Shown here piece after piece: positions 43,857 to 59,697 of a DNA stretch of 64,000 nt. How positions within the stretch are numbered: position 1 is the stretch's first letter; every line of letters begins with the position of its first letter. Made by a program: the position numbers and the translations under genes. Below the pieces are notes generated by a model. That model saw only the letters and a program-made list of their open reading frames with translations, was not told the DNA's origin and did no database searches. Source of the stretch: Oribacterium sp. P6A1 (GTDB lineage: Bacteria > Bacillota > Clostridia > Lachnospirales > Lachnospiraceae); NCBI RefSeq assembly GCF_000702885.1, contig NZ_JNKO01000001.1:124001-188000 (forward strand). The letters run 5' to 3'.

Positions 43857-43876
43857 CAGGAACAACTCCTTATTTT

Positions 43877-44296: not shown

Positions 44297-44578
44297 TTGA
44301 TGTTCTCCAAATTGATTTTTTGACACAATTTCAATTGACAATCACGCTAAAGTATAGCTTACAGCTGTTGCCATATCAAGAAATCATATAAATTTTACCG
44401 CGTAATTGTGCAATATTGACTTTGAAAGTTTTTCAAAAAAATGTAAAATATATAATATATGAATTTGGAGTTTAATTGTCAAGATAATATATTCTTTATT
44501 TTATTACAAAAATTTCACAATTAGATTTAAATTCCTGTTTCATTTCCATGTTTTGCTACAATTTAAAAAGGAGGTATT

Positions 44579-45088
44579 ATGTTTCACAATGGTGATTATG
44601 TAGTTTACGGATGTAAAGGCATACACAAAATCATCGACACAACAATTCTTAATCTTGATGGCGTATCAAAAGACAAAGAGTATTATGTGATGCAGCCATA
44701 CGACAAACCCTCAGGTTCTGTTTATGCACCTGTGGATTCAACAAAAATCAATATGAGAAAAGTGATGTCAAAGGATGAAGCAAAGGCTTTTATCAAAACA
44801 GTTCCGGGTATCGGAGTGCTTGACATCAAGAACAACAAACAGCGGGAGGATGCATACAAAGAGTGCATCAAGAGCTGTAGTCCCGATGAACTCATGAGAG
44901 TCATCAAAACATTGCATCTTCGCAAGGAAGAGCGCAGCAGTCAGGGCAAAAAGCTTACACTTACAGACACACATTATATGCAGCAGGCAGAGGGGATCCT
45001 TTACGACGAGTTATCTCTCGTTCTGGATATGCCGAAGGATGATGTTCCTGATTACATTTCTGACGTAGTACATAAATCAGTTGTATAG
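44579..45088 (+). CDS. CarD-like transcriptional regulator
   Basis: 169 residues. The N-terminal CarD/TRCF RNA-polymerase-interacting domain (about 1-65) reads FHNGDYVVYGCKGIHKIIDT...KEYYVMQPYDKPSGSVYAPVDSTKINMRKVMS. The helical C-terminal half (ELMRVIKTLHLRKEERSSQGKKLTLTDTHYMQQAEGILYDELSLVLDM) is the DNA-binding part. Such proteins bind RNA polymerase beta and modulate promoter opening, often of rRNA and stress genes. GGAGG precedes the ATG. Single-gene unit. Confidence 0.92.
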   Translation: MFHNGDYVVYGCKGIHKIIDTTILNLDGVSKDKEYYVMQPYDKPSGSVYAPVDSTKINMRKVMSKDEAKAFIKTVPGIGVLDIKNNKQREDAYKECIKSCSPDELMRVIKTLHLRKEERSSQGKKLTLTDTHYMQQAEGILYDELSLVLDMPKDDVPDYISDVVHKSVV

Positions 45089-45257
45089 ATATATAATTAT
45101 CTTTTCTGTATTTTATCTATTATCTGTCACTATCGGGTGAGGCCGGAGACGGCACTTCACAATTGATTTAAAAAATCTGGTAGAGTATTTTTTACTTTAC
45201 ATATAACTTCTGAGTATAGACTAACTTGAATGTTATTAGTATGAATATAGATAGCTG

Positions 45258-45321
45258 AAGGGCTGCCGCAGATTTTTGGTTTCGTTCATTATGAAACAGG
45301 AAATCTGCAGCAGCCCTTTTT
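45258..45321 (+). terminator. Long intrinsic terminator 170 bases after the CarD gene
   Basis: Stem 45258-45266 with 45310-45318, continued by GCAGATTT/AAATCTGC and an inner GTTTC/GAAAC helix, then T. It ends two bases before rlmH's stop on the other strand. A small GCCG-GAGA-CGGC hairpin lies at about 45140-45155. The gap between may be a long 3' UTR or hide a small RNA. Confidence 0.75.
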
Positions 45322-45322
45322 A

Positions 45323-45802
45323 TCACTTGTGATAGGGTTCATTGTTATTTATTTTAAACGCCCTGTAGATCTGCTCAAGAAGTATGACTCTCATAAGCTG
45401 ATGAGGGAAGGTCATCTTGCTGAAGCTAAGTTTATAGTTGGCTCTTTTAAGAACATCAGGAGAAAGTCCCAGTGATCCTCCGATCACAAATGTTATATCC
45501 GAAGTTCCGCGAACCATAAGGTCAGAAATCTTTCCTGCCAGCTGTTCAGAGCTTAGCATTTCCCCCTCTATGGCAAGAACAACAACAAAAGACCTGTCGC
45601 TTATCTTTTGCAGTATCCTCTCACCTTCCGTTTCCTTTATCTTTTCTTCAACCGACAGAGGTGCACGATCGGGAGTTTTTTCATCCTGTACCTCAATAAT
45701 ATTTATGTCGCAGAAAGCCCCCAGTCTTTTACTGTATTCCGCTATAGCGTCTCTCAGATATTTCTCTTTGATTTTTCCTACTGTTACAAGTGTTACTTTC
45801 AT
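45323..45802 (-). CDS. rlmH: 23S rRNA pseudouridine-1915 N3-methyltransferase RlmH
   Basis: 159 residues from ATG 45802 (a TTG six bases upstream is also in frame). SPOUT-class enzyme that methylates pseudouridine 1915 of 23S rRNA. Motifs are KVTLVTVGKIKEKYLRDAIAEYSKRL, FVIGGSLGLSPDVLKRANYKLSFSKMTFPHQLMRVILLEQIYRAFKINNNEPYHK, the last forming the trefoil knot and substrate-binding tail. Complete. Confidence 0.97.
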   Translation of the reverse strand: MKVTLVTVGKIKEKYLRDAIAEYSKRLGAFCDINIIEVQDEKTPDRAPLSVEEKIKETEGERILQKISDRSFVVVLAIEGEMLSSEQLAGKISDLMVRGTSDITFVIGGSLGLSPDVLKRANYKLSFSKMTFPHQLMRVILLEQIYRAFKINNNEPYHK

Positions 45803-45976
45803 AATCAACTTCCATTCTTTCCTGCACGGGGTAAATCCGGGAGGGATCCATTCCGGCTGCTGTCTTACCCGTTTATAAAGTTTGATGGTTCACTTTCAAT
45901 CTTATATATGAAAATCAGCCGACAGATACCTGCCGACTGATTAATTTCACTAAATATACGGAACTTTCAGGAGACG

Positions 45977-48616
45977 TCAGTTAAGTGTCTGAAGACGTTC
46001 TTCAACCTGCTTAAGCATCTGCATATTACGCTCAAGCTTCTCACGTTCCTCCTGAACCTTGGCAGCAGGAGCCTTGGAGATAAATCTCTCGTTATTAAGC
46101 ATACCGTTTGAACGCTTTATCTCAGCTTCCCACTTCTCCTTCTCCTTCAGGAGTCTCTCCTTCTCCTTCTCGATATCAACGAGATCCGCAAAAGGAATGT
46201 AGATGGTGGCATCAGGAATGGCAACGGATACTGCATCATCAGCTATGCCTGACTTATCCTCCTGAATCACTACGTCTGAAGCACTTGCAAGGGTGGCAAA
46301 GAATACCTTACTGTGCTCAAAGGTCTTTCTTACTCTGTCATTTGTTGTAACAACGAAGTTCTGAGCCTTTCTTGAAGGAGCAACGTTCATTTCCGTACGA
46401 ACATTTCTGATGGCACGTACTGCTTCCTTGATAGCTTCGATCTCAGACTCATCCTCTGAGAAATTGAAATCCTCTTTATATACAGGCCACTCCTGCTTCA
46501 TGAGAGGTGACTGTGAATCTGTAAGAGTATCAAAAATCTCTTCTGTGATGAACGGACAGAACGGGTGAAGCAGCTTAAGAGATGTAGTAAGTACATACTT
46601 AAGTGTCCAGAGAGCTGCGCTCTTGGTCTCATCCTTCTCATCCCAAAGTCTCGGCTTAACCATCTCTATGTACCAGTCACAGAACTCCTCCCAGATAAAG
46701 TTCTGAACCTTATCAAGAGCTATACCAAGGTCAAATGCCTCCATATTACGTGTAACATCCTGAATAAGATTGTTTACCTTGCTGAGGATCCAACGGTCAG
46801 CCATGGTTATATTGGATGGCATATCAGCAGGAACCGAAGCCTTATCAAGGTTCATCATGATGAATCTTGAAGCATTCCATACCTTGTTCATGAAGTTACG
46901 TGAAGCTTCTACTCTTGACCAGTAGAAACGCATGTCATTTCCCGGAGCATTACCTGTAAGAAGTGTCATACGGAGTGCATCGGCACCATAAGTCCTGATT
47001 ACCTCAAGTGGATCGATACCGTTTCCGAGAGACTTACTCATCTTACGTCCCTGATCATCTCTTACGAGACCATGGATAAGAACCTTTCCGAAAGGAACCT
47101 TTCCCGTCTGCTCTATGCCTGAGAATACCATACGTACTACCCAGAAGAAAATGATATCGTATCCTGTTACAAGGACATTTGTAGGATAGAAATACTTATA
47201 CTCAGGAGTCTCCTCAGGCCAGCCTAATGTCTCAAACGGCCAAAGGGCACTTGAGAACCATGTATCAAGAGTATCGGGATCCTGAGTAAAATGTGTTCCT
47301 CTGCACTTTGGACATACTGTCGGAACCTCTCCGGAAACCACCATTTCTCCACAAGCGTCGCAGTAGTAGGCCGGAATTCTGTGTCCCCACCAAAGCTGTC
47401 TTGAGATACACCAGTCCTTGATGTTCTCCAGCCAGTGAAGATATGTCTTTGAATAGTTCTCAGGTACGAACTGAAGATCTCCTGTCTCTATAGCCTTGAT
47501 AGCAGGCTTTGCCATTTCAGCCATCTTAACAAACCACTGAGGCTTGATCATAGGCTCAACTGTAGTGCCGCATCTGTCATGGGTGCCGACATTATGCTTT
47601 GTAGGAACGATCTTAACGAGGAGCCCGAGATCCTTGAGATCCTGAACCATGAGCTTACGGGCCTCATAACGATCCATACCATCGTACTTTGATCCCGGAC
47701 AATTGATTGTAGCATCATCCGCAAGAATGTTTATCTCAGGAAGGTTATGGCGCTTTCCAACCTCAAAGTCGTTAGGATCATGTGCCGGTGTGATCTTAAC
47801 CGCACCTGTTCCGAACTCCATATCTGCATGCTCATCCCCTACGATAGGTATCTCTCTGTCTGTAAGAGGAAGCTTAACCATCTTTCCGATGAGATCCTTG
47901 TATCTTGGATCCTCAGGATTTACGGCAACGGCTGTATCACCAAGAAGAGTCTCCGGTCTTGTGGTAGCGATCTCTATAAATCTGTCATCCTGTCCTGCGA
48001 TAGGATACTTGATATGCCAGAAATTGCCATCCTGCTCCTCATGAAGAACCTCTGCATCGGAAAGTGATGTATGACATACAGGACACCAGTTGATGATTCG
48101 TGAACCCTTGTAGATATATCCCTTCTTGTAAAGCTTGATAAAGGTAGTCTCAACAGCCTTTGAACATCCCTCATCCATAGTAAAACGAAGTCTGTCCCAA
48201 TCTGCTGAGGAACCGATCTTGTGGAGCTGATTAACGATTCTTGACTCGTACTCTTCCTTCCACTTCCATGCTTCCTTAAGGAACCCTTCACGACCAAGAT
48301 CGTGCTTATCGATACCCTGTTCCTTCAGTTTATTTGTAACCTTAACTTCTGTAGCGATAGCTGCATGGTCACAACCCGGCTGCCAGAGAGCCTCGTAACC
48401 CTGCATTCTCTTAAAACGGATAAGAGAATCCTGCAGAGTATTGTCAAGTGCGTGTCCCATATGTAACTGACCTGTTACATTTGGAGGAGGCATCATGATG
48501 GTAAACGGCTTTTTGTTGGCATTTACCTCTGCATGAAAATAATTCCCCTTCATCCACATTTCATAAATGCGGTCCTCAACTTCTTCCGGATTGTACTGTT
48601 TAGCAAGTTCCTTCAT
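45977..48616 (-). CDS. valS: Valyl-tRNA synthetase
   Basis: 879-residue class I synthetase. HIGH motif in PPPNVTGQLHMGHAL (about 41-55), KMSKS in GRKMSKSLGNGIDP, the editing domain (TTRPETLLGDTAVAVNPED...GTGAVKITPAHDPNDFEVG), a zinc-site region (YYCDACGEMVVSGEVPTVCPKCRG) and a C-terminal coiled coil (VDIEKEKERLLKEKEKWEAEIKR...). The gap to the upstream gene is 28 bases, so there is no T-box leader in front of it. Confidence 0.97.
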   Translation of the reverse strand: MKELAKQYNPEEVEDRIYEMWMKGNYFHAEVNANKKPFTIMMPPPNVTGQLHMGHALDNTLQDSLIRFKRMQGYEALWQPGCDHAAIATEVKVTNKLKEQGIDKHDLGREGFLKEAWKWKEEYESRIVNQLHKIGSSADWDRLRFTMDEGCSKAVETTFIKLYKKGYIYKGSRIINWCPVCHTSLSDAEVLHEEQDGNFWHIKYPIAGQDDRFIEIATTRPETLLGDTAVAVNPEDPRYKDLIGKMVKLPLTDREIPIVGDEHADMEFGTGAVKITPAHDPNDFEVGKRHNLPEINILADDATINCPGSKYDGMDRYEARKLMVQDLKDLGLLVKIVPTKHNVGTHDRCGTTVEPMIKPQWFVKMAEMAKPAIKAIETGDLQFVPENYSKTYLHWLENIKDWCISRQLWWGHRIPAYYCDACGEMVVSGEVPTVCPKCRGTHFTQDPDTLDTWFSSALWPFETLGWPEETPEYKYFYPTNVLVTGYDIIFFWVVRMVFSGIEQTGKVPFGKVLIHGLVRDDQGRKMSKSLGNGIDPLEVIRTYGADALRMTLLTGNAPGNDMRFYWSRVEASRNFMNKVWNASRFIMMNLDKASVPADMPSNITMADRWILSKVNNLIQDVTRNMEAFDLGIALDKVQNFIWEEFCDWYIEMVKPRLWDEKDETKSAALWTLKYVLTTSLKLLHPFCPFITEEIFDTLTDSQSPLMKQEWPVYKEDFNFSEDESEIEAIKEAVRAIRNVRTEMNVAPSRKAQNFVVTTNDRVRKTFEHSKVFFATLASASDVVIQEDKSGIADDAVSVAIPDATIYIPFADLVDIEKEKERLLKEKEKWEAEIKRSNGMLNNERFISKAPAAKVQEEREKLERNMQMLKQVEERLQTLN

Positions 48617-48644
48617 AAATGTTGTACCTTTCTATATTTAGTAT

Positions 48645-49436
48645 TCAGATTTTCGCACGGTATTCACGTTTCCATTTCAGGATCATGATTTTTGAATGTT
48701 CACGGAATGCGGAACGATTTTTCTGATATATCTCATGTATTTCTCTGACTCTGTCACTTTGCTCGGCGACAGCCTGTACTTCATTATACAGAAGTTCCCA
48801 GTTTGCAAGCATATCCACGCCTATATTTTCGATATACTTTTCTATGGTATCGACGGATGGCTCAAGCTTACTTATGAAATACAGCTTTTTCAGGGCTTCA
48901 TCAGAACCTGTAGCGATAAAAACCTCCTCATAAAGATCGGAAGCTTTCTGATACTGCATTACTGTAACATAAGTTCCGGCAAGTTTCATCTCTACATTGA
49001 AATCCGTATTCAAAAAGAATGATTCCTCGTAGGCTTCTATAGCTCTACCGTATTTTCCCATACGTAAGTATGTATCCCCAAGCATATTCAAAAATACATG
49101 TCTTTCAATATTTTTGAGTTTCTTGTATTCACTCTCAAAGCGTGATATCTCAGCCTGAGTATAATAGTTGCTTTCCCTGAGTATCATGAGGAGCAGTCTT
49201 TCCTGATTGCCGTCATCCCCCGCCATCATGAACTGCTCAAGTCTGGCGGCAAGTATCCCCATGTTAAGCTCATCTCTGAGCCATGCAGTGAGCTTATGAT
49301 CAACAAATTCCGAAGGAATGATAACGGGATATCTGTAGATCACATAGCTGAGCTCCTGAATCGACCATAGATCAATATCTAATTGTTCATAGTAAAACGG
49401 ATGTCTCGCACCCTTATTACATAATAGTAAAGCCAT
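48645..49436 (-). CDS. TPR-like helical protein, third gene of an unknown operon
   Basis: 263 residues, no signal peptide. The N-terminal 60 residues (LCNKGARHPFYYEQLDIDLWSIQELSYVIYRYPVIIPSEFVDHKLTAWL) contain an unassigned conserved-looking block. Residues about 110-200 look like tetratricopeptide repeats: ERHVFLNMLGDTYLRMGKYGRAIEAYEESFFLNTDF, VEMKLAGTYVTVMQYQKASDLYEEVFIATG. Probably a protein-protein adaptor. It begins 15 bases after the stop of the Hsp70-like gene, which starts 4 bases after the 894-residue gene: one transcript. No function known to me. Confidence 0.72.
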   Translation of the reverse strand: MALLLCNKGARHPFYYEQLDIDLWSIQELSYVIYRYPVIIPSEFVDHKLTAWLRDELNMGILAARLEQFMMAGDDGNQERLLLMILRESNYYTQAEISRFESEYKKLKNIERHVFLNMLGDTYLRMGKYGRAIEAYEESFFLNTDFNVEMKLAGTYVTVMQYQKASDLYEEVFIATGSDEALKKLYFISKLEPSVDTIEKYIENIGVDMLANWELLYNEVQAVAEQSDRVREIHEIYQKNRSAFREHSKIMILKWKREYRAKI

Positions 49437-49451
49437 GAATTTTTCCTATCG

Positions 49452-50669
49452 TTATTTTTCCGATAAATCGATTTCTTCTACAATTTCTTTATCCGAGGCA
49501 GGGAAAATGTCTCCGAACCCCAGATCCCTGACAGTCACCTTAAGGGTGTCGGCATCTGTGAACTCCGTGGACATACGTATCCTGGTTGTACGTTTGTCTC
49601 TCTCAGGAAATGTATCAAGCATCATGCGCAGTCTCAAAGGTCTCTGAGGCTTCGATATGGATGTTACCTGAAAATCAATGTAATCCTGATCATCAAGTAT
49701 CATCTCATAGCAAGAGCTTGTATCCATCCAGCTTTCACCAGCGCGGACAATGGGAAGAGTCTCCGATTTCTCATTCAGAGTAACCTTGACAGAAACATCT
49801 GCTCTTGAGCGTGTATCGCAAAGTATCATGTACTCTTCATTCTTTCCCTCAGCCTTGTTCCTGACACATATCTCGGCACCAATGGCAAACATTCCGGGCT
49901 CTATGAGAACTCTTCTTCTCTTGCAGATATAGTTCATGAAATTTGTGGCAAAATTGGTATCCTGAAAACCTCTTCCGGACAGGAATACAGCTGAATATGA
50001 TTTGTTGTTCATAACTCTGTCCGCCACTGTAGTGAGTATCTTATCTGCAATCTTACCCCCCGAAGTGGTTTTCAGTATATCCAGACTAAATGCCTCATCC
50101 TCCGCTTCAGAACCTACCATAACATATCGCTTTGTACCTCTTGAAACATGCATCTCATAGTAGTACAGACACTGATTGTTAAGCTCAAACATGCCCACCA
50201 TACGGTTAAACAGGCTATTGTCCTGATCAAGAACAAAATGTGCAAAGCTTTCGGTATGACTCATGATGTAGACATTATCCTCTGCCACCCCTGCTTTTAT
50301 CATAGCTTCCTTAAGCTTACTCACTATATCACGGTTGGGCTTTCTTATGGTAATGGCCACGATGTCATCTTCGGTCTTATTGCTGTCCTTGCCTAAAAGC
50401 TCACGAAAATAACGGGCCAGAATATCTATCGCCTTGTATTTAACCCTGGAAATGGTGGCAGTACCGTTTTTTTCAAGAAGACTTAACAGCTTGTCCACGA
50501 TGACTCCGGAACCTGCAAGAGTTGCCTTGTAGGCATCCTCTCCGATGGTCCATTTGTCCTCTGTTTTGTCCTTGGCGATAACAGTCGGCTGAAACCTCGA
50601 TACTGTTTTATCATTTATGCAGATGCACGTATAATCATCATTTAGTGAAATTCCAATATAGCGATTCAC
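49452..50669 (-). CDS. Hsp70/actin-fold (DUF5716-like) protein
   Basis: 405 residues starting at GTG after AAGGAGC. Three blocks line up with DnaK: YIGISLNDDYTCICIN (phosphate-1-like, residues 4-19), DIVAITIRKPNRDIVSKLKEAMIKAGV...IMSHTESFAHFVLD (about 102-148; compare the DnaK segment before its EPTAAAL) and YSAVFLSGRGFQDTNFATNFMNYICKRRRVLIEPGMFAIGAEI (about 225-267; adenosine motif). The usual GTT of phosphate-1 is replaced, so ATP use is uncertain. The tail (about 275-400) is beta-rich. I recall such proteins as DUF5716 in Lachnospiraceae. Confidence 0.75.
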   Translation of the reverse strand: MNRYIGISLNDDYTCICINDKTVSRFQPTVIAKDKTEDKWTIGEDAYKATLAGSGVIVDKLLSLLEKNGTATISRVKYKAIDILARYFRELLGKDSNKTEDDIVAITIRKPNRDIVSKLKEAMIKAGVAEDNVYIMSHTESFAHFVLDQDNSLFNRMVGMFELNNQCLYYYEMHVSRGTKRYVMVGSEAEDEAFSLDILKTTSGGKIADKILTTVADRVMNNKSYSAVFLSGRGFQDTNFATNFMNYICKRRRVLIEPGMFAIGAEICVRNKAEGKNEEYMILCDTRSRADVSVKVTLNEKSETLPIVRAGESWMDTSSCYEMILDDQDYIDFQVTSISKPQRPLRLRMMLDTFPERDKRTTRIRMSTEFTDADTLKVTVRDLGFGDIFPASDKEIVEEIDLSEK

Positions 50670-50673
50670 TTAA

Positions 50674-53358
50674 TTATTGCTCCTTATCTTTTGTTTCGAT
50701 CAACTCTTTGGTAAAAAGCTCATCGATAACCGACTCATTTTTCACATAGCGAAGCATGACTTCGCGAAGCTCCCTGTCGTTGTCCAGACCAAGCAGGTCG
50801 GACATCTCATTCAGGATATCAAAGGTATCTCCCTTATGGCGCACACATTTATCAGCCTTGATGGTGCCGCTATCCGCTACATCTTCTCCTCTTGTTTCAT
50901 CAAAGATCTGGTATTCCGCCTTCTCTCTGGAGAAAAGAGTAATGGGCCGAACATAAATGTTCTGGTAGACTCTGCTGATCTCTTCTTCCTCAAAATCCTG
51001 TTCATCCGGAAGTATCCTCATCTGGAGTGTAGGTCTTACATACTTATCCCCATGATACTCTATATAGTATTTATCCATTACCCAATCCGGGATACGAATT
51101 ACATCACTCAATGTTCTTGTATACTTGAACACCAGCTTCTTCTGAATAAGAAAATCGATAACATCCTGTAAGACCATCTTTTCTTCACCGGTCAGTTTCT
51201 TGTTCTCTGCCATATGCCTTGACATGGCAAGAAGATATATCATAGGTACTCTTTCTTTTATCCTCTCATCCCTGACGATTCCATAAATGTCTTCAAAAAC
51301 ATCATCTGATATCTTCTGTCCATGGATGAAATAATCTATAGCACGCTTTGTGATATATGCCCGTATCAGGACATTCTGTGTATTAGGCTGTTTTCTGTAT
51401 ATATGATATACATCGTCAAGACCATCTTCAGCCCAGCAGAAAAGCATCTGAGCCAGAAGTCTTTCTGTCATGTCTTCAGTATCGGCCTTGGTTTTTATTC
51501 CCTGACGGAGTATAGCGATCATATCAGCGGAAATTCCGTTGTACTCCTTAAGAAGGTAATTCAGGATATCCTTATCGCTTGTACCCATCTTAAAGATCTT
51601 ACGGGCAAGCAGCATGACATCCTTTGAATGTGAGACTTTCTCATCATTAATAAGAAAACGTCCAAGCTTTTCAAGATACTGACGCTTTATTCCGGAATCT
51701 TCAGTCTGAAGCAAAAGCTCGTAGGCATCCTCAAAAAGATTGAGTTTTATATATGTCCTGATAAGAATATCTCTGTCCTCATCATTATGACTTGTGATAT
51801 CAATGTTTCTTAAGAACGTGATATCTGAATCATCAATAAGCCTGTCTGAATCTTTTGTAAAGGATTCATGATATATAAGTGCCGCATGCTCAAGATATGA
51901 ACGATAAGGTCTTGAAATGTCCATATCAGCCGCCACCTGTTCTATAAGTCTGAGCTGATCTATGGTCCTGATACCCTTCTCTGCGATCTTTTTGGCCCTG
52001 ACAAGCTTAAGCATGGCATGCTCAGGCAATATCTCAAAGCACTTCCTTTCAAGATCCTCCTTGTGCATGATACGGGTCAGACTATGTTCTACATCGATAT
52101 ATCTGTTACCGTAATCATCCTGGAAAAGAAGTTCACTGTTGTCAAAGAATACAGGAACATAGGCGGATCCGTCCTTTAACTGATAGACCTCTTCTCTGTT
52201 GAGCTCTCTGTACTTGATCACAACATAACTCATTCTTTGATCAGTTGTGGTCACCCTGCATGAACGAAGTATAGCCGGAAGAACCGAAGCTATCCTTTCA
52301 TCGATCATATCAGAAAGGATCATCCTGTCATAAATTACACTGAGTCGTTTGTTAAAAGCCGATTTAAGCAGTTTGTCTATGGCGAAGCTCTGTATCTTAT
52401 GCTCATACCTCTGATAAACGTCATCCGACTCCGAAAAATTCATGAGAATATTGTAGTAAAGCGGAAGCTTCATATTATCTTCCATAGTGCTTTCATAATC
52501 AAAGTACAGATAGACTTCCCTGGGGAGTCTGCCGCTCCATCCCTTAGGCATGGCAAACATATAATACTCATAAAGACGGGTAATATTGGAGCCCATTTCT
52601 ATGGCTCTCTGATAAATATCAAATGCCATCTTATCTGTAGCGCCTTCTCTTATACAAATTCCGGCGGCCTTTTCTATAAGCGGTTTGTCATCTACCTCCA
52701 GGGCAAAAACATCCTGAAGCTTTGATGAATCCTCATGCTCCGATGATTCAGCTCTGCACTCACAGGCTTCTGAATTCACTGAAGCTCTGTTTTCCTGATT
52801 TATTGCAGAAAGAAACTGCTCTAATGCGATCTTTCTGTCGTGTCCGCTTTTCAATCCCTGGTATATGGTATAAAGCCTTGAATCATGCATGAATCCGGCT
52901 TCTTTAAAATCATCGTAATCAAAAACACGCACAGCAAAATCAGGGTCTTCTTTACAGAAAGCAGCAAAATCTTCCGCTGTATGAAGCCCCGAAATAATTT
53001 CATTGGATTTATATGATGAACGGACATCAAAAGAATAGGTCACCTTTACCTCGCCTCCGTTCGATACGATATAAAGCTGGCCTTCGATCTTGTCACCATC
53101 TTTCATCTTACGTGTATCTACTACACATCTGATGAGAGAACGTATGCCTCCAAAAGCATCCTTCTGTACAGTGACATGTGGATTATCAGAATATATAAGT
53201 CCCTTTAACAGTATTCCGTTTTCTGAATATATAATGAGTTCAAATTTTGCAAGCTCACCGATATCAACAGTACCCTTGAATGATGTATCACTCAATTTGA
53301 GAACCGGTCTGTCAAGCTCAACTATCCCCCGTGCAAGTTTATTTATGCGTTCTTTCAT
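50674..53358 (-). CDS. Large DUF5717-like repeat protein
   Basis: 894 residues, no signal peptide or membrane segment. The first 120 residues are beta-rich (RPVLKLSDTSFKGTVDIGELAKFELIIYSENGILLKGLIYSDNPHVTV), like an Ig-type domain. The rest is a long helical solenoid with TPR-like pairs (for example LNLFEDAYELLLQTEDSGIKRQYLEKLGRFLINDEKVSHSKDVMLLARKIFKMG) and a beta segment near 760-830. It is the first gene of the operon and is convergent with nothing; a DUF4364-like regulator gene lies divergent upstream. The family label rests on memory; function unknown. Confidence 0.7.
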   Translation of the reverse strand: MKERINKLARGIVELDRPVLKLSDTSFKGTVDIGELAKFELIIYSENGILLKGLIYSDNPHVTVQKDAFGGIRSLIRCVVDTRKMKDGDKIEGQLYIVSNGGEVKVTYSFDVRSSYKSNEIISGLHTAEDFAAFCKEDPDFAVRVFDYDDFKEAGFMHDSRLYTIYQGLKSGHDRKIALEQFLSAINQENRASVNSEACECRAESSEHEDSSKLQDVFALEVDDKPLIEKAAGICIREGATDKMAFDIYQRAIEMGSNITRLYEYYMFAMPKGWSGRLPREVYLYFDYESTMEDNMKLPLYYNILMNFSESDDVYQRYEHKIQSFAIDKLLKSAFNKRLSVIYDRMILSDMIDERIASVLPAILRSCRVTTTDQRMSYVVIKYRELNREEVYQLKDGSAYVPVFFDNSELLFQDDYGNRYIDVEHSLTRIMHKEDLERKCFEILPEHAMLKLVRAKKIAEKGIRTIDQLRLIEQVAADMDISRPYRSYLEHAALIYHESFTKDSDRLIDDSDITFLRNIDITSHNDEDRDILIRTYIKLNLFEDAYELLLQTEDSGIKRQYLEKLGRFLINDEKVSHSKDVMLLARKIFKMGTSDKDILNYLLKEYNGISADMIAILRQGIKTKADTEDMTERLLAQMLFCWAEDGLDDVYHIYRKQPNTQNVLIRAYITKRAIDYFIHGQKISDDVFEDIYGIVRDERIKERVPMIYLLAMSRHMAENKKLTGEEKMVLQDVIDFLIQKKLVFKYTRTLSDVIRIPDWVMDKYYIEYHGDKYVRPTLQMRILPDEQDFEEEEISRVYQNIYVRPITLFSREKAEYQIFDETRGEDVADSGTIKADKCVRHKGDTFDILNEMSDLLGLDNDRELREVMLRYVKNESVIDELFTKELIETKDKEQ

Positions 53359-53537
53359 TCTATATGTTCTCCTGGAAAATCTCCATGAAAGTATATATTA
53401 ACACAGAAAAAGACCTTGTTAAAGTAAATTTCAAGGTTTGGCGCTATTTCACTAAGCTTATGCGGTTATGAACATTGAAATACAGCTGTTTTCTTGATAT
53501 CATAATCAGACAATATATTAACAAAGGAAATATAAGT

Positions 53538-54056
53538 ATGATAACAGAACCACTTACATTATACAAACTAATGATTCTTTATTTATTAAAGACCGTAAAT
53601 TACCCTTTAACAAATAATCAACTGAGCGGTTTTTTTCTGGATTACGAATATACTACATATTTTACTCTTCAACAAGCCATCTCGGATCTGGACGATGCGG
53701 GGCTTATCAAAACGCATCCAAGCAAAAAGTCCACAAGATATGAAATCACCCAGGAAGGATCCAATACCATTGAGCTTTTCGGCAACGATATCTCTTCCGG
53801 CGCAGTGGAAGATATGAACAGGTTCCTGAAGGAAAACAAGATGAAGCTACGTCAGGAGTCTTCGAACTACACAGATTATTACGAGACTGAAACCGGCGAT
53901 TACATCGTTCATGCCGAGGTAAGGGAAGAAAACAATATTCTTTATGCCCTTGATATCAATGTTCCGGACAAGGATTCCGCAGAGCGCATGTGTGCCAAAT
54001 GGGGAGAAAAAAATCAGGAGATTTATGCATTCGTTGTGAAAAATCTTCTCAGCTGA
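53538..54056 (+). CDS. DUF4364-like winged-helix protein
   Basis: 172 residues from ATG 53538 (AAGGAAA upstream); an in-frame TTG at 53475 adds 21. The N-terminal half reads like a PadR/winged-helix module: PLTLYKLMILYLLKTVNYPLTNNQLSGFFLDYEYTTYFTLQQAISDLDDAGLIKTHPSKKSTRYEITQEGSNTIELF. The C-terminal part is alpha/beta. Matches the DUF4364 group of clostridia. Divergent from the 894-residue gene with 180 bases between starts, so it could regulate that operon; this is inference. Confidence 0.82.
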   Translation: MITEPLTLYKLMILYLLKTVNYPLTNNQLSGFFLDYEYTTYFTLQQAISDLDDAGLIKTHPSKKSTRYEITQEGSNTIELFGNDISSGAVEDMNRFLKENKMKLRQESSNYTDYYETETGDYIVHAEVREENNILYALDINVPDKDSAERMCAKWGEKNQEIYAFVVKNLLS

Positions 54057-54081
54057 GCTTTTCAATTTTTAAGCTATAAAA

Positions 54082-54112
54082 AAAGTGTTTCCGCTGTGGA
54101 AACACTTTTTTT
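54082..54112. terminator. Bidirectional intrinsic terminator
   Basis: A perfect 11-bp stem (54082-54092 with 54098-54108), five-base loop, T run on both strands. Serves the DUF4364 gene (plus) and the aminotransferase gene (minus). Confidence 0.93.
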
Positions 54113-54181
54113 ATTACTTATTCCTTCTTTATATCCGGCGTATATCATTCCGTTTAATAAAGCCTAAAGGAAAAGTCAAAA

Positions 54182-55540
54182 TCACTTATCTGATGCCGCC
54201 TCAGCGATTACTTCTTCCGGCTTCTCGGCATCGAGTTTCCTGATATCCTCTCCTGTCTTTGAAGAAAGGAGCTTTTCTGCAGAAACCAGCTTTACACAAA
54301 GTGTGAAAAGATTTGCTGCTGTCTTCAGATCATCAAGAGGAGGATATGTAGGAGCGATACGTATGTTTGTATCTTCAGGATCCTTATGATAAGGGAAGGT
54401 AGCTCCGGCATCCGTAAGCTTTACTCCTGCTTTCTTGCAATGATCCACTACAGACTTTGCGCATCCCGGAATAGTATCGAAGCTGATAAAGTATCCTCCG
54501 TTTGGCTTTGTCCACTCTCCGATTCCCAGGCCTTCAAGATTCTTAGCAAAAACATTTTCAACCATCTCAAACTTAGGTCTGATGATTTCCGCATGCTTAC
54601 GCATGTGCTCAACCATACCGTGGATGTCACCGAAGAAACGAACATGTCGAAGCTGATTTACCTTGTCATATCCGATGGTCTGATGCTTCATCTGACTTCT
54701 GATATCATCAAGGTTGTTGGATGATGTTGCAAGTGCGGCGATTCCGGAACCCGGGAAAGTAATCTTTGATGTGGAAGCAAACTTATATACCATATCAGGA
54801 TTACCGGCGCGCTTACACTCTGCAAGAATCTCGATAAGATAATCCTGATTCTTGTCATACAGATGGTGAATACCGTAAGCATTGTCCCAATAAATACGGA
54901 AGTCCTTGGCAGCAGGCTGAAGTCTTGCAAAACGGCGGACAGTTTCATCATTATAGCTGTATCCCTGAGGATTTGAATACTTCGGAACACACCAGATTCC
55001 CTTTATAGTTTCATCTTCCTTTACAAGCTTCTCAACCATGTCCATATCCGGACCTGTGGGAGTCATGGGAACATTGATCATCTCTATACCGAAATATTCA
55101 GTGATACCGAAATGTCTGTCATATCCGGGTACAGGGCAGAGCCACTTAACCTTATCAAGCTTGCTCCATGGAGTATTGCCCATTACACCGTGTGTCATGG
55201 ATCTTGAGATGGAGTCATACATTACGTTCAATGATGAATTACCGTAAATAATGATATTGTCCGGATTGTTTTCCATCATATCCGAAAGAAGCACCTTTGC
55301 CTCATCGATACCTCCCAGAACGCCGTAATTTCTACAATCGGTTCCGTCTTCACAGTACATATCGGCTCCACTTGTAAGAGCATCCATAAGACCCATGCTG
55401 AGATCAAGCTGCTCCTTGCATGGCTTACCACGGCTCATGTCAAGACTCATCTCCATAGCCTGATATCTTGCGTACTCTTTCTTAAGTTCCACAAGCTCCT
55501 TTTGAAGCTCTTCTTTTGTCATCTGTGTGTAAGCTTTCAT
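54182..55540 (-). CDS. Class I aminotransferase (aspartate-aminotransferase-like, subgroup Ic)
   Basis: 452 residues. PLP-dependent enzyme with MSLDMSRGKPCKEQLDLSMGL near the start, a substrate-domain segment NYGVLGGIDEAKVLLSDMM, NVPMTPTGPDMDMVEKLV, GIWCVPKYSNPQGYSYNDETVRRFA, FRIYWDNAYGIHHLY (Asp for the pyridine nitrogen) and the PLP-lysine block YKFASTSKITFPGSGIA. It resembles the Ic group of aspartate aminotransferases. Substrate most likely aspartate or a related amino acid; not proved. GGAGG precedes the ATG. Single gene with a terminator. Confidence 0.9.
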   Translation of the reverse strand: MKAYTQMTKEELQKELVELKKEYARYQAMEMSLDMSRGKPCKEQLDLSMGLMDALTSGADMYCEDGTDCRNYGVLGGIDEAKVLLSDMMENNPDNIIIYGNSSLNVMYDSISRSMTHGVMGNTPWSKLDKVKWLCPVPGYDRHFGITEYFGIEMINVPMTPTGPDMDMVEKLVKEDETIKGIWCVPKYSNPQGYSYNDETVRRFARLQPAAKDFRIYWDNAYGIHHLYDKNQDYLIEILAECKRAGNPDMVYKFASTSKITFPGSGIAALATSSNNLDDIRSQMKHQTIGYDKVNQLRHVRFFGDIHGMVEHMRKHAEIIRPKFEMVENVFAKNLEGLGIGEWTKPNGGYFISFDTIPGCAKSVVDHCKKAGVKLTDAGATFPYHKDPEDTNIRIAPTYPPLDDLKTAANLFTLCVKLVSAEKLLSSKTGEDIRKLDAEKPEEVIAEAASDK

Positions 55541-55665
55541 CAGTGGCCTCCTGCCAAAAATATATTTTTGCCGCCGAGATCGAAAAAGTTCAGGTTTTCA
55601 GGAACTGTTTTGATCCGTAAAAAGAATGATCGTTAAATTTCAAACTTTTACATCCGAGTATAATC

Positions 55666-55694
55666 AAAAAGCCCGATGCATGCAAGCATCGGGC
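55666..55694 (-). terminator. Intrinsic terminator of the TPR lipoprotein gene
   Basis: A perfect 9-bp stem (55671-55679 with 55686-55694), a six-base loop ATGCAA, and five T on the minus strand (55666-55670 as A). Confidence 0.88.
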
Positions 55695-55738
55695 ATCAAA
55701 AAAAAGCTTTTTCGGCTATATCAGATATAACAGGGAGA

Positions 55739-56368
55739 TCATCCGGATATCATGGCTTCATTTTTCTCCAGGGCAGATACTCTTGTGGAAAGAAACTTTT
55801 CTTCTCTCTGTGCATCCTCATCATCAGGATACTGATTTAGGTAGGCCTTTATTTCATTATAAGCCTCTTCCCACTGAGCGGTTTTCTCATAATAAACCAC
55901 CTTGTCATACTGTAAATCCCTGTCATTCCTGATACCCAGAGCTTCCGCTCCATCAATTTTTTCTTTGGCGGTATCGGTATCACCTGCATCCAGTGCCTCA
56001 GAAGCCTCCTTTACCATCCTTTTGGCATCAAGCTGTGCCTGAAATTTGATGTACTCATCTTTATCTCCATTCACTTCTCTGAGAGTTTTGAGTGACTTTT
56101 CGGCAGCTTCCAGGTCTCCGCTCATGTATTCAGCCTCTGCTCTGTACATCAGTATGTCAAACTGAAGCTCACCTACTTTTCCGTCACTTAACTCCATAGC
56201 CTCATTAAAGGTTTCAACCGCCTTTTCATACTTGGCCTTCTGAAGCTCTTCTATACCCTGAAGTCTCAGTTCATCAACCTTTTTCGAAGAACATGCCGTA
56301 AGAAGCAGCATGAGTCCAAGCATCATACCTATGGAAATACGTTTTATGATAATGCTATATTCTGACAT
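55739..56368 (-). CDS. TPR-repeat lipoprotein
   Basis: 209 residues from ATG 56368; a TTG at 56386 is also in frame but has no ribosome site. Signal peptide with hydrophobic core GMMLGLMLLLTAC; lipobox LTAC. Three to four TPR-type helix pairs follow: QGIEELQKAKYEKAVETFNEAMEL, ILMYRAEAEYMSGDLEAAEKSLKTL, KEASEALDAGDTDTAKEKIDGAEAL, AQWEEAYNEIKAYLNQYPDDEDAQ. Probably an extracytoplasmic adaptor. Separate from dut upstream by 91 bases. Confidence 0.8.
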   Translation of the reverse strand: MSEYSIIIKRISIGMMLGLMLLLTACSSKKVDELRLQGIEELQKAKYEKAVETFNEAMELSDGKVGELQFDILMYRAEAEYMSGDLEAAEKSLKTLREVNGDKDEYIKFQAQLDAKRMVKEASEALDAGDTDTAKEKIDGAEALGIRNDRDLQYDKVVYYEKTAQWEEAYNEIKAYLNQYPDDEDAQREEKFLSTRVSALEKNEAMISG

Positions 56369-56459
56369 TTTATCAATAATCCCCAACTTTATATATCAAT
56401 CACTTTTGGACTTTAAAGTCCCTGCTTTATATATTCCCCTTGAAAAACGTCACCTGATT

Positions 56460-56897
56460 TTAATTCTTGCCTGTCGAACCAAATCCACCTCTGTCTTCGT
56501 TTCCGAGAGATTCAACCTCATCAAATACGATATGAGGCTGGTGCTCAATGATCCTGAACTGGCAGATACGGTCATTCACATGAAGCTCCGTATCTCTTGT
56601 GGCGAAAACCGGCATACGGATTATGTCATTGTCACCGCAGTATGTTTCATCAATAACTCCGAGAGAGTTAGTCTGTATAAGTCCGAAATTCTTGAATGTT
56701 GAACTTCTTGGGGCAAGAAGCATCTCATATCCGTCGGGAACCTGAAGTGATATGCCCATGCTGATTAGCTTAAAATCCCCTTTTCTGAGGCTGACATTTT
56801 CAGCAACTCTAAGATCGATCCAGTCACTCTTTCCTGCAATATACTCAAGCTTTTCGATTTCCTGTGAATGATACTTTATCTTAATTGTCTTCTCCAT
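56460..56897 (-). CDS. dut: dUTP diphosphatase
   Basis: 145 residues. Trimeric dUTPase hydrolysing dUTP to dUMP and diphosphate. Motifs are YIAGKSDWIDLRVAENVSLRKGDFKLISMGISLQVPDG, MLLAPRSSTFKNFGLIQTNSLGVIDETYCGDNDI, QFRI and the C-terminal RGGFGSTGKN arm that closes the site. All five family motifs can be found. It overlaps the scpB end by 17 bases, so its translation is coupled. Confidence 0.96.
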   Translation of the reverse strand: MEKTIKIKYHSQEIEKLEYIAGKSDWIDLRVAENVSLRKGDFKLISMGISLQVPDGYEMLLAPRSSTFKNFGLIQTNSLGVIDETYCGDNDIIRMPVFATRDTELHVNDRICQFRIIEHQPHIVFDEVESLGNEDRGGFGSTGKN

Positions 56898-57678
56898 AAT
56901 TCTCCTTATTATCTTCCTCTTCTAAAGATTCTTCTTTTGCTTCCGGAGCGGTAACTTCTTCCTGTGTCAATGTTTCTTCATCTGCTTCCTCATCCGAATC
57001 ATCAGGCTGAGCCGCCCCCATGATGTCAACCACCTCATCATTGACTTCCTTCTTTATTTCTTCCTCCATCTCAGGATTAAGATTCGGAAGATTATCAAGA
57101 GAGCTTATGCCGAATCTTCTCAGGAACTCCTCAGTAGTGGCAAACAGTGCAGGTCTTCCCGGAGCATTGAGACGTCCCACCTCATAGGCAAGGCCATACT
57201 CAACCAGCTTATTGACAGCATGATCCGATGAAACACCTCTGACCCTTTCAATTTCAGCCTTGGTAACAGGCTGTTTATACGCGATTATGGCAAGAGTCTC
57301 CATGATAATATCTGTAAGCACAGGTTTCTTGGGATGCTTGGCCACTCTTATAAGAGCATCAAAACACTCGGGATTTGTTGCCATCTGATAGTGATTGGCA
57401 ACCATCTGTATGATGATTCCGCCCTTTCGCTCTTCATATTTCTTCATAAGTCTTTCAATAGCCTTTTTTGCAGGTCTTTCGCCGCAGTCAAGGGCTGTCT
57501 TTATCTCTTCCAGACTTACGGAATTTCCCTTTGTATATAAAAGAGCTTCTACTATATTTTCCTCTTGGGTAAGCTCATCATTGAACTCTCTGTCGATTTC
57601 CATGGCAAGCTTTTTCTCTATGGAATCAAGCTCCGGATCCTCATCGATAGGTAATCTCAATTGTTCATTTTTACTCAT
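56881..57678 (-). CDS. scpB: Segregation and condensation protein ScpB
   Basis: 265 residues. Kleisin-interacting winged-helix protein that with ScpA and SMC compacts chromosomes. Typical blocks are IVEALLYTKGNSVSLEEIKTALDC, GIIIQMVANHYQMATNPECFDALIRV, PVLTDIIMETLAIIAYKQPVTKAEIERVRGVSSDHAVNKLVEYGLAYEVGRLNAPGRPALFATTEEFLRRFGISSLDNLP. An acidic tail (about 215-265, many E and D) is longer than usual. It follows scpA by three bases. Confidence 0.96.
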   Translation of the reverse strand: MSKNEQLRLPIDEDPELDSIEKKLAMEIDREFNDELTQEENIVEALLYTKGNSVSLEEIKTALDCGERPAKKAIERLMKKYEERKGGIIIQMVANHYQMATNPECFDALIRVAKHPKKPVLTDIIMETLAIIAYKQPVTKAEIERVRGVSSDHAVNKLVEYGLAYEVGRLNAPGRPALFATTEEFLRRFGISSLDNLPNLNPEMEEEIKKEVNDEVVDIMGAAQPDDSDEEADEETLTQEEVTAPEAKEESLEEEDNKENYGEDN

Positions 57679-57681
57679 TGA

Positions 57682-58482
57682 TTACAAGTCCTCCAGATTT
57701 GTAAGATCAAGATCTTCATCCGACTGATTGGGATCCAGTACCTCGGTTATATCCATATCACCGAAGGGGGTTTCCTGAACCAAGGTGATACGTCCCATCT
57801 TCATAAGCTCAAGAATGGCAAGAAAACTTACCACCACATCCATCTTATCCTTTTTCTTTCGTATCATATGACGGAAAGAAAACTTATGGTGTCCTCTGAC
57901 ATATTTAAGTACATCACGTATACGTCCCTCAAGAGAAATCTTTTCCTTCTTGATGACACCGAACTTTGAACGTACCTTATCGATAGAATCTTCCTTACGT
58001 CTCATTACATCTTCAAAAACAGTCTTGAGACTTTCGAGGGTCACCTTTTTCAAAAGATCATCAAGATCTATAGGCGGTACATACTTTTCAACCTCCTTTG
58101 GAATGGTAGGTCCTTTATAGTAGTATCGGTCTGCATCATCCTCCCTTTCCTGAAGGATCTGTCCCATAAGCTTATATTTTCTGTATTCGAGAAGTCTCGC
58201 CACAAGTTCTGCTCTCGGGTCTACTTCCTCACCGGTCTCTTCATCAACCTCTCTCGGAAGAAGCATCCTTGATTTTATTTCAAGAAGGGTTGCGGCCATA
58301 ACAAGGAAATCCGAAACTATATCCAGATTTTCCTCTTCCATATGGCTGACATAATCCAGATACTCTGCAGTGATCTGAACTATGGGAATATCAAATATAT
58401 CGATCTTATCCCTCTCGATAAGATGCAGTAAAAGGTCAAGGGGACCTTCAAATTTATCAAGTTTATATGTGATTTCAGGCAT
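57682..58482 (-). CDS. scpA: Segregation and condensation protein ScpA
   Basis: 266 residues. Kleisin subunit of the bacterial condensin. Shows YKLDKFEGPLDLLLHLIERDKIDIFDIPIVQITAEYLDYV, VSDFLVMAATLLEIKSRMLLP and the C-terminal RIRDVLKYVRGHHKFSFRHMIRKKKDKMDVVVSFLAILELMKMGRITLVQETPFGDMDI. Complete. The metallophosphoesterase gene ends four bases before it, so all four genes down to dut form one transcript. Confidence 0.96.
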   Translation of the reverse strand: MPEITYKLDKFEGPLDLLLHLIERDKIDIFDIPIVQITAEYLDYVSHMEEENLDIVSDFLVMAATLLEIKSRMLLPREVDEETGEEVDPRAELVARLLEYRKYKLMGQILQEREDDADRYYYKGPTIPKEVEKYVPPIDLDDLLKKVTLESLKTVFEDVMRRKEDSIDKVRSKFGVIKKEKISLEGRIRDVLKYVRGHHKFSFRHMIRKKKDKMDVVVSFLAILELMKMGRITLVQETPFGDMDITEVLDPNQSDEDLDLTNLEDL

Positions 58483-58486
58483 ATTA

Positions 58487-59425: not shown

Positions 59426-59484
59426 AATATGTATCCCCTTATAATAGCCATCATGCATCAAAATTTATAATTATTCAAAGCAGT

Positions 59485-59591
59485 TAATTGACAGACAGGT
59501 GAGCCGGGAGAGCCTGTTATCAATTACCGGTCATCCTAAGCACTGCTTAGGCAACCGCAAAACGTAAGGCGATGCAAAAGGATTTGCAGCC
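59485..59591 (+). other. Multi-hairpin structured non-coding region upstream of the HTH gene
   Basis: Three hairpins in a row: 59485-59491/59520-59526 with inner ACAGG/CCTGT; a perfect 8-bp stem with a one-base centre (59535-59551, CCTAAGCA then TGCTTAGG); and GGC/GCC plus TGCAAA/TTTGCA (59568-59591). No protein frame and no known riboswitch consensus that I can match. May be a non-coding RNA, a leader or a repeat; strand is not certain. Confidence 0.4.
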
Positions 59592-59620
59592 TCCAAGTGA
59601 TGCATGTGCAGCAATAGAAT

Positions 59621-59641: not shown

Positions 59642-59697
59642 ATCAAAACCCCAAAGTTTTATCATAAAACTTGTCCAATAGTTAAAAGGAAGTAATT

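Follow-up and report, generated by a model that had tools for sequence, protein, structure and literature searches.

An operon of three genes in the window, as we call the whole 64,000-nucleotide stretch of the Oribacterium sp. P6A1 genome analysed here, probably encodes a three-protein scaffold around a nucleotide-independent pseudo-Hsp70, reduced from an ATP-driven machine with several Hsp70s, and we give this reading a probability of about two in three. Its computed basis consists of homology, fold, loss of catalytic residues and of subdomain IIB, co-conservation, gene order and purifying selection, from which we infer that the three products would bind one another, carry no bound nucleotide and handle clients. 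Because relatives possess a longer version of the operon with three intact Hsp70s and an exchange-factor-like protein, the short version looks like the core left over from a little-known chaperone machine.

All three genes lie on the minus strand and were called as ORFs encoding an 894-aa DUF5717 protein (50674..53358), a 405-aa DUF5716 protein with a GTG start (49452..50669) and a 263-aa TPR-like protein (48645..49436), separated by gaps of 4 and 15 bases. These coordinates agree with the tight spacing and the lengths of 894 and 405 residues given in the initial annotation, which had also named the families correctly. The 894-aa protein matches DUF5717_N (PF18984) at 437.3 bits and DUF5717 (PF18983) at 218.5 bits, both with a curated cut-off of 25 bits, and the 405-aa protein matches DUF5716_C (PF18980) over residues 104-402 at 286.5 bits (cut-off 34.7 bits), both proteins being members of these families. 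For the 263-aa protein, Pfam gave weak TPR-model matches (best 25.9 bits), all below the curated cut-offs; it is a short form of the TPR protein of the long operon, which measures 383-441 aa in seven copies. Pfam describes PF18980, PF18983 and PF18984 only as families of unknown function, and the Hsp70 ancestry of DUF5716 is a new addition to them. No description of DUF5716, DUF5717 or the long operon was found in a literature search covering published open-access papers.

The 405-aa protein has no HSP70 (PF00012) match in Pfam at E<=1, and a sequence search against solved structures returned nothing credible (best E 0.098). Its AF2 model (pLDDT 90.7, pTM 0.87) presents the fold of an ASKHA nucleotide-binding domain (NBD) and a substrate-binding beta domain (SBD-beta), devoid of a lid. 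The best Foldseek match is DnaK (7kru_A, 1.3e-19, probability 1.00, TMq 0.65, 525 alignment columns, chain of 538 residues), and further matches are Ssz1 of RAC (6sr6_C, 3.9e-17) and Sse1/Hsp110 (2qxl_A, 1.2e-15). Titles of 48 of the 50 matches listed of 1557 name Hsp70-type proteins, the other two being chains of ciliary central-pair entries; TM-scores against DnaK are moderate (0.45-0.65 among the matches listed). Since DnaK is the best match, the protein is a relative of Hsp70, not an MreB- or FtsA-like one, and the divergent Hsp70-like protein anticipated from the sequence was borne out. According to the model and alignments, the degenerate NBD takes up about residues 1-275 (49845..50669, minus strand) and the SBD-beta about residues 280-401 (49467..49832, minus strand), while the site of the missing subdomain IIB falls at about residues 192-201 (50067..50096, minus strand), where 9-12 residues stand against 71 in the organism's DnaK.

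The 894-aa protein was modelled with pLDDT 84.0 and pTM 0.66, and its predicted architecture includes an N-terminal ASH/PapD-like beta-sandwich (residues 20-113, 53020..53301, minus strand, limits from DSSP of the model), a helical solenoid and two further beta domains, in keeping with the Ig-like and helical-solenoid parts noticed earlier. Foldseek gave just 4 matches at E<=0.001; OCRL1 540-678 (3qbt_F), which we take to contain an ASH domain, was found at 2.4e-4, and the PapD-like domain of HYDIN (2e6j) at 1.5e-3 with TMt 0.69. On this model, the DUF5717 protein is a predicted scaffold.

The long operon and its distribution

Other families of the same order carry a long locus of fixed order, DUF5717(N)-DUF5717-Hsp70(H1)-GrpE-domain protein-DUF5716(H2)-Hsp70(H3)-Hsp70+VWA(H4)-TPR, of which the Lachnospiraceae locus retains just DUF5717, the H2 descendant and TPR. 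The GrpE-like product is a long coiled-coil protein with a C-terminal GrpE domain (PF01025 at 42.5, 54.6 and 50.2 bits in all three scanned, cut-off 25.8), and outside Lachnospiraceae its gene occurs in 11 of 12 genomes that have DUF5717 and in 0 of 12 that lack it. Neither H1, H3 nor the GrpE-like protein was found in 37 Lachnospiraceae genomes, where the H1 and H3 models reach no more than the DnaK level of 185 bits, against 1110-1158 bits in two control genomes. One reduced locus (G051) retains just DUF5717(N)-DUF5717-H2, and the TPR protein may therefore not be part of the core.

H2 of locus L058 matches both DUF5716_C (2.2e-33) and HSP70 PF00012 (1.8e-14). Since H3 of the same locus matches DUF5716_C too (1.3e-12), some DUF5716_C matches outside Lachnospiraceae are H3; likewise, the H3 model picks up the DUF5716 gene of several Lachnospiraceae, with up to 50.7 bits (G017). 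In a tree containing several rows with long branches or odd composition, and rooted at the midpoint for drawing, 11 Lachnospiraceae rows group with H2 of family f4 with support of 100/100, and the fork uniting these with the H2 of L067 is weak (73/95). A D-x-G-F-G-x-x-F-P signature near the C-terminus of the window protein (residues 382-390, 49500..49526, minus strand) recurs in 22 of 30 H2 and 8 of 24 H3 sequences, and in 0 of the H1, H4 and DnaK sequences.

The expectation that the three genes travel together was upheld by the neighbourhood survey and, beyond what chance would give, by the joint occurrence of the two DUF families across 61 genomes, of which 45 have both, 12 neither and 4 only one. 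Within Lachnospiraceae, DUF5716 was found in 36 of 37 genomes, accompanied by DUF5717 in 34, and always as one copy, except for two contig pieces in one genome (G002). Of 243 loci, the best 80 were named, and these are rich in Butyrivibrio; many loci in the tally end at contig ends or at the end of the stretch compared. Among particular cases, DUF5716 and TPR are fused in one ORF in L133; DUF5716 of L055 went uncalled, its place being taken by a longer ORF that overlaps it on the opposite strand; and in L051, well inside a 163-kb contig of a genome 67% complete (G036), DUF5716 has no DUF5717 or TPR gene next to it. A 446-aa H4-labelled ORF in L041 was judged not to be part of the locus and left out of the tally, and a weak DUF5717_N match outside the order (G718), a lone 205-aa ORF without partners, was not counted as a member. 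The 405-aa gene is under strong purifying selection, with dN/dS against congeners of 0.036-0.060 in 5 of 7 comparisons with finite dS, values that are rough as dS exceeds 1 throughout.

Nucleotide site and subdomain IIB

The phosphate-1 region of the window protein reads SLNDDYT where the organism's own DnaK has DLGTTNS, confirming the reported lack of the usual GTT. Motifs were counted in complete ORFs above length limits (at least 500 aa for H1 and H3, 400 for H2, 560 for H4 and 340 for R) and, among named loci, in ORFs of up to 500 aa, which places the L133 fusion outside the 105 Lachnospiraceae DUF5716 sequences. All 13 counted nucleotide-site residues are kept in H1, H3 and H4 (76 of 76 sequences); N13 and R71, which lie outside these 13, are likewise intact there, apart from N13 in 22 of 24 H3 and R71 in 30 of 31 H1 and 23 of 24 H3. 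The catalytic Lys K70, kept in 76 of 76 H1, H3 and H4, occurs in 0 of 30 H2 and 0 of 105 Lachnospiraceae DUF5716, and the catalytic Glu E171 in 76 of 76, 4 of 30 and 0 of 105, respectively. The span of IIB follows the same series, with 64-83 residues in H1, H3 and H4, 62-71 in H2 and 9-12 in 105 of 105 Lachnospiraceae DUF5716. In Hsp70, this subdomain is rotated by exchange factors and meets IB when the cleft closes (PMC10825016). Titles and abstract openings found on the topic contained no IIB-less Hsp70.

What makes the window protein a pseudo-Hsp70, and more than a divergent Hsp70, is the IIB deletion together with the long operon, which has three intact Hsp70s and a protein with a GrpE domain; neither can be seen from the window alone. 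Since D8 (96 of 105), G10 (62 of 105) and the adenosine-site G341 (105 of 105) survive in many Lachnospiraceae relatives, weak nucleotide binding is possible there; the window protein itself has S8 and N10. A DUF5716 protein that binds nucleotide without hydrolysis, and serves in the complex as a slow switch sensing ATP/ADP, would agree with these residues and with the IGAA glycine retained in 105 of 105; ASKHA enzymes of small size can bind ATP even if they have no large IIB. We nevertheless consider such a switch unlikely, given that T11 and T199 are each kept in only 4 of 105 sequences, that K70 and E171 are gone, and that even D8 and G10 are replaced in the window protein. In favour of a switch, Ssz1 binds ATP without hydrolysing it (PMC7083937). 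Against one, IIB, the partner of IB on cleft closure, is absent here.

Known systems and the proposed complex

With DnaK/Hsp70, the window protein shares the NBD and SBD-beta fold, and it differs by degenerate phosphate loops and the absence of K70, E171, IIB and lid. A similar case, with no kinship by descent implied, is Ssz1 of the yeast RAC, also an Hsp70 that has no lid, does not hydrolyse ATP and stays in a fixed complex with its partner, as proposed here; Ssz1, however, can bind ATP and has a J-protein as its partner (PMC7083937), whereas here IIB is deleted and the neighbouring genes encode a beta-solenoid and a TPR protein. Among the domains listed for the window trio and for the eight proteins encoded by the L058 operon there is no J-domain. 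Ssz1 and Zuo1 serve the active Hsp70 Ssb (PMC7083937), and the DUF5716 protein could likewise be a dedicated co-chaperone of the housekeeping DnaK, an adaptor or Hsp110-like helper rather than part of a stand-alone scaffold. The organism keeps a canonical DnaK (804.7 bits) and Sse1/Hsp110 is among the fold matches listed, but in its genome the operon is on contig C1 and dnaK on C2, and the likely active partners in the long operon are H1, H3 and H4, which makes this role quite improbable.

Specialised bacterial DnaK paralogues are also known from Myxococcus, in a paper concerning DnaK1 and DnaK2 whose main text contains 'Clostridi' and 'Lachnospir' 0 times (PMC11019930). A neighbourhood of HSP70, GrpE and beta/TPR proteins has been described as the HSP70+GrpE theme of GAP1-N2 GTPase systems in actinobacteria and firmicutes, with HSP70, GrpE, FNIII fused to DnaJ/TPR and, in some systems, a second, truncated HSP70 without peptide-binding domain (PMC7159879). 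Despite this resemblance of parts, an anti-phage or conflict system of that kind is very improbable. No GAP1-N2 was found at the long-operon loci, whose flanking genes were scanned in part; the eight scanned operon proteins (L058) include no GTPase or DnaJ domain, and the operon has three catalytic Hsp70s, a VWA-Hsp70 fusion, GrpE on a coiled coil and DUF5717. GAP1-N2 (PF20013) was found in 1 of 22 genomes, there on contig C89 with DUF5717 on C6; PADLOC gave nothing convincing in ten proteins, with at most 34.7 bits (PDC-M71B against the TPR protein of L062); and the near-universal presence of DUF5716 in Lachnospiraceae is unlike that of patchy defence genes. An actin-like filament protein (MreB/FtsA/ParM) with two adaptors, as the initial annotation had considered, shares the ASKHA core of the 405-aa model, but is hardly credible and was rejected on the fold search, with SBD-beta present, no MreB, FtsA or ParM among the 50 matches listed of 1557, and no IIB, which is needed for contacts in actin-like filaments.

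According to the preferred reading, a pseudo-Hsp70 in a three-protein scaffold, the 405-aa protein would descend from the non-catalytic paralogue H2 of the longer operon. The Lachnospiraceae locus would then have lost its catalytic Hsp70s and GrpE-like protein, and the H2 descendant would have shed its ATP site and subdomain IIB. The remaining trio could form a constitutive, nucleotide-independent complex framed by the ASH-like domain and solenoid of DUF5717, in which the degenerate NBD, the conserved GFG-FP edge or both may anchor the pseudo-Hsp70. Its SBD-beta would then offer a standing peptide site of low affinity, as with Ssz1 in the yeast RAC, and the TPR protein may recruit a client or a further partner.

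Hsp70 is the textbook ATP-driven machine, and we suggest only tentatively that a nucleotide-free version of it is strongly conserved family-wide, the whole ATP cycle having been removed (the catalytic Hsp70s, the exchange factor and, in the one Hsp70 left, the lobe on which such factors act) and the pseudo-Hsp70, ASH-solenoid and TPR frame kept as a lasting scaffold or as a complex that holds clients. In that case, the long operon of the sister families would encode a machine, so far undescribed, of four Hsp70s, one of them with a VWA tail, and a GrpE of its own. Intact H1, H3 and H4, dead H2 with IIB and the Lachnospiraceae form with IIB cut out represent a natural series, and the lineage with the IIB-less form is also the one that lacks the dedicated GrpE-like gene, so that Hsp70 domains acting as a scaffold without a nucleotide cycle become a testable idea. 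Two Pfam families of unknown function thereby gain an ancestry and a hypothesis.

Neighbouring genes

The gene 28 bases downstream of the operon (45977..48616, minus strand), presumably valS-like from its sequence, is a neighbour outside the system. Upstream, a promoter-like site (TTAACA-16-TAATAT with TG, 53395..53422, minus strand) precedes the operon, the number of such sites in the region being not above chance (17 found, 16.3 expected), and Rfam gave no match at the gathering threshold over 40000-60000. The divergent gene at 53475..54056 (plus strand) is DUF4364 (PF14277, 177.4 bits), as had been recognised, and no literature on DUF4364 was found. Its proposed control of the operon was not sustained, as it adjoins the operon in only 4 of 65 loci (window, L041, L073, L076), all of the window's family, some of the 65 ending before that point. 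The Hsp70-like protein, the solenoid and the linked trio stood from the original interpretation, and the actin-like assembly and the DUF4364 control did not.

A coiled-coil transmembrane protein follows TPR in 73 of the best 80 loci, yet was dropped from the core because its gene also occurs where DUF5717 is absent, and because neither the window's genome nor any of 16 congeners yielded it. In PADLOC, the coiled-coil membrane protein of L162 matched ZorA-type models at 20.7 bits or less, along the coiled coil. A divergent upstream gene, which we take to resemble an aminotransferase, is conserved in 20 loci.

The three-gene cluster and its predicted folds

The three genes lie on the reverse strand of the window, separated by 4 and 15 bases, and encode a DUF5717 protein of 894 aa (50674-53358; Pfam PF18984, 437.3 bits, and PF18983, 218.5 bits), a DUF5716 protein of 405 aa with a GTG start (49452-50669; DUF5716_C, 286.5 bits), and a TPR-like protein of 263 aa (48645-49436) for which the Pfam TPR models are weak and all below their cut-offs. 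No NCBIfam match was obtained for the 894-aa or the 405-aa protein at E<=1. Downstream, after 28 bases, comes a gene which we take, from its sequence, to be valS-like; upstream, a DUF4364 gene lies in divergent orientation. A terminator-like hairpin of 18 pairs is found 3′ of the latter (54076-54114), such sites not exceeding the number expected by chance, and 55739-56386 encodes a small TPR protein (PF14559, 31.3 bits) whose N-terminus resembles that of a lipoprotein.

The initial annotation proposed a divergent Hsp70-like protein with dedicated adaptors, and the ASKHA core on which this depends is present in the AlphaFold2 model of the 405-aa protein (pLDDT 90.7, pTM 0.87, 51 sequences). Its top Foldseek match in the PDB is DnaK (7kru_A; 1.3e-19, probability 1.00, TMq 0.65, 525 alignment columns). 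At E<=0.001 there were 508 matches; among the 50 listed, with TMq of 0.45-0.65, 48 carry Hsp70-type titles, including Ssz1 and Sse1, and the remaining two are chains from structures of the ciliary central pair. The substrate-binding SBD-beta aligns with the C-terminal strands (approximately residues 280-401), and the chain stops short of a lid.

The model of the 894-aa protein (pLDDT 84.0, pTM 0.66) starts with a beta-sandwich, after which come long helical solenoids and two more beta domains. Just four Foldseek matches reached E<=0.001. The beta-sandwich is best matched by residues 540-678 of OCRL1 (2.4e-4), presumably an ASH domain, and also matches the PapD/ASH-like domains of HYDIN (1.5e-3) and CEP192 (4.9e-3). 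The solenoid gave weak Foldseek matches (TMq ~0.1), which identify no family. Since its PF18984 matches are confined to 1-208 and 529-873, the middle of this protein is missing; it is about 300 residues short of the ~1190 aa usual at the named Lachnospiraceae loci.

Of seven comparisons with congeners, five have a finite dS for the 405-aa gene and give it a dN/dS of 0.036-0.060; the TPR gene exceeds this in all five, and the covered part of DUF5717 (~394 codons) in four of four with finite dS. These values are rough, because dS is above 1 in every comparison.

Co-occurrence of the genes and the long operon in related families

Among 61 genomes, DUF5716 and DUF5717 are each present in 47, with both in 45, neither in 12 and discordance in four. 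DUF5716 occurs alone in G006 and G036, and DUF5717 alone in G003 and G041. In G006, G003 and G041 the expected place of the missing partner is beyond a contig end; in G036, a 67% complete genome, the lone DUF5716 lies inside a 163-kb contig and is a true exception in that sequence. In Lachnospiraceae (n=37), DUF5716 is found in 36, DUF5717 in 35 and both in 34. In the best-scoring 80 of 243 loci, DUF5717 is always within 103 bases of DUF5716 (median 12), and a TPR gene follows DUF5716 in 78, within 150 bases in 76; of the other two, L088 is at a contig edge and L133, from a metagenome-assembled genome, carries DUF5716 and TPR fused in-frame in a single 745-aa ORF (L133:8298-10535). In the same best 80 of 243, a coiled-coil protein with two apparent transmembrane helices (e.g., L053:7437-8630) is encoded after the TPR gene in 73. 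Its gene is present in 29 of the 61 genomes, including some without the operon. The DUF5716 of L053 (G191, Lachnospiraceae, the family of the window) is 100% identical to that of L077, from Butyrivibrio hungatei DSM 14810.

Other families of this order carry DUF5716 in a longer cluster with a fixed gene order: a DUF5717-N protein, a DUF5717 protein, the Hsp70 H1 (~559 aa), a coiled-coil protein that ends in a GrpE domain (560-645 aa in most loci, less in L057, L067, L164 and L181), DUF5716 itself (H2, 412-565 aa), the Hsp70 H3 (~546 aa), the Hsp70 H4 (~692 aa), which ends in a VWA domain, and a TPR protein. The GrpE domain (PF01025) scored 42.5, 54.6 and 50.2 bits in the three coiled-coil proteins scanned. 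In L058, H2 matches DUF5716_C (2.2e-33) and HSP70 (1.8e-14), and H3 matches HSP70 (1.6e-63) and DUF5716_C (1.3e-12), so that the DUF5716 and Hsp70 families are linked by sequence alone. The VWA domain of H4 (L058:6287-8362 and orthologues; PF00092, 39.8 bits) occupies the position of the lid, an unusual fusion, and its DxTGSM-type motif is found in 19 of 21 sequences.

Among 65 loci compared (64 fetched and the window), 26 have the order DUF5717-DUF5716-TPR, with or without the transmembrane coiled-coil gene after it. The exact eight-gene order is found in nine, two more have it followed by that gene, with H4 of L057 split in two, and seven have the long order without a separately called N-terminal ORF; most of the other 21 are fragments, truncated where a contig or the fetched stretch ends. 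Whole or in pieces, the long form is present in 14 families of the order. In 11 loci a membrane coiled-coil gene lies directly upstream of the long operon on the same strand (e.g., L162:13828-15150, L158:5770-7155), and the one product scanned against PADLOC gave weak ZorA-like coiled-coil matches only. A divergent gene of ~365 aa, presumably aminotransferase-like, lies upstream in 20 compared loci, beside short and long operons alike.

The GrpE-like protein is present in 11 of 12 non-Lachnospiraceae genomes with DUF5717 and in none of 12 without it. In the 37 Lachnospiraceae its only two matches, of 24 and 19.6 bits, are weak and both lie beside dnaK, which fits ordinary grpE. The H1 and H3 models, which reach 1158 and 1142, 1133 and 1110 bits in control genomes (G059, G042), did not find their proteins in these 37 genomes, reaching at most 184.9 and 181.2 bits, on DnaK, with other Hsp70 paralogues scoring below it. 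Several Lachnospiraceae encode Hsp70 paralogues of ~565-590 aa away from this locus (e.g., G029:C14:8267-9712, G020:C18:11335-12651), which by score are not H1 or H3. In G051, the one genome of the 12 with DUF5717 that has no GrpE-like protein, the locus is limited to DUF5717(N)-DUF5717-H2 with no adjoining TPR gene, and looks like a second, independent reduction.

More widely, DUF5717 was found in 94 of the 196 genomes covered from the order and DUF5717_N in 21 of the 393 from the class, including G718, whose match was examined and rejected as a member. A search of 398 genomes of the phylum found DUF5716 in five; all five are Lachnospiraceae, and those listed included just two further genomes from the order.

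Decay of the ATP site and a possible scaffold

Thirteen residues of the ATP site (D8, G10, T11, T12, K70, E171, D194, G196, G197, T199, D201, G341, G342) were scored against the window organism's own DnaK (L157), counting Ser as Thr and Arg as Lys. All are intact in H1 (31/31), H3 (24/24) and H4 (21/21). In H2, K70 and D201 are retained in none of 30 sequences, E171 in four, T199 in three and D8 in 28, and subdomain IIB has its full length (62-71 residues vs. 71 in DnaK). Of 105 Lachnospiraceae sequences, none retains K70, E171 or G342, four retain T11, four T199 and two D201, and IIB is reduced to a span of 9-12 residues in all. The 405-aa protein reads SLNDDYT where DnaK has DLGTTNS, and ELNNQ-CLY where it has DLGGGTFD. 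In a tree rooted only at the midpoint and including some rows that are long-branched or of odd composition, 11 Lachnospiraceae rows form a clade (100/100) with H2 of L057 (family f4), which still has a IIB of 68 residues; the next fork, to H2 of L067, is weak (73/95).

According to PMC10825016, exchange factors rotate subdomain IIB and thereby open the Hsp70 cleft, and GrpE touches IB and IIB. Because exchange factors act on IIB, its loss in a lineage without the GrpE-like gene is understandable in mechanistic terms: with the catalytic partners and the exchange factor lost, the lobe on which they act would have become dispensable. We infer that the trio may be a nucleotide-independent scaffold, with a putative assembly around a pseudo-Hsp70 presumably devoid of nucleotide and a presumed client. 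The nearest working analogy is Ssz1, described in PMC7083937 as a lidless Hsp70 that binds ATP, is unable to hydrolyse it and is kept in a fixed complex. However, retention of D8 in 96 and of G341 in all 105 Lachnospiraceae sequences counts against nucleotide independence.

Parsimony argues for a change from the long operon to the short form, since the long form is present in many families of the order and the short one in Lachnospiraceae and, differently, in G051, and since the steps of decay form a natural progression from active to dead. A pattern close to the C-terminus, D-x-G-[FL]-G-x-x-[FYW], occurs in 103 of 105 Lachnospiraceae sequences, 22 of 30 H2 and eight of 24 H3; it is absent from all 31 H1, all 21 H4 and DnaK, and is a candidate partner site.

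Comparison with known systems

The one paper found to contain the name DUF5716 or DUF5717 is, by its title, unrelated. Literature searches that combined the components gave no description of the long operon among the titles and abstract openings listed, subscription papers and preprints being outside their coverage. The closest published neighbourhood found is the HSP70 and GrpE theme of the GAP1-N2 GTPase-centric conflict systems, of which, as described in PMC7159879, the part list of these loci is reminiscent. The GAP1-N2 protein that defines those systems was found in one of 22 genomes, on a contig other than that of the operon, and these loci are therefore not members of such systems. The protein (G487:C89:8422-8757) scored 113.5 bits, and the same genome carries the long operon elsewhere.
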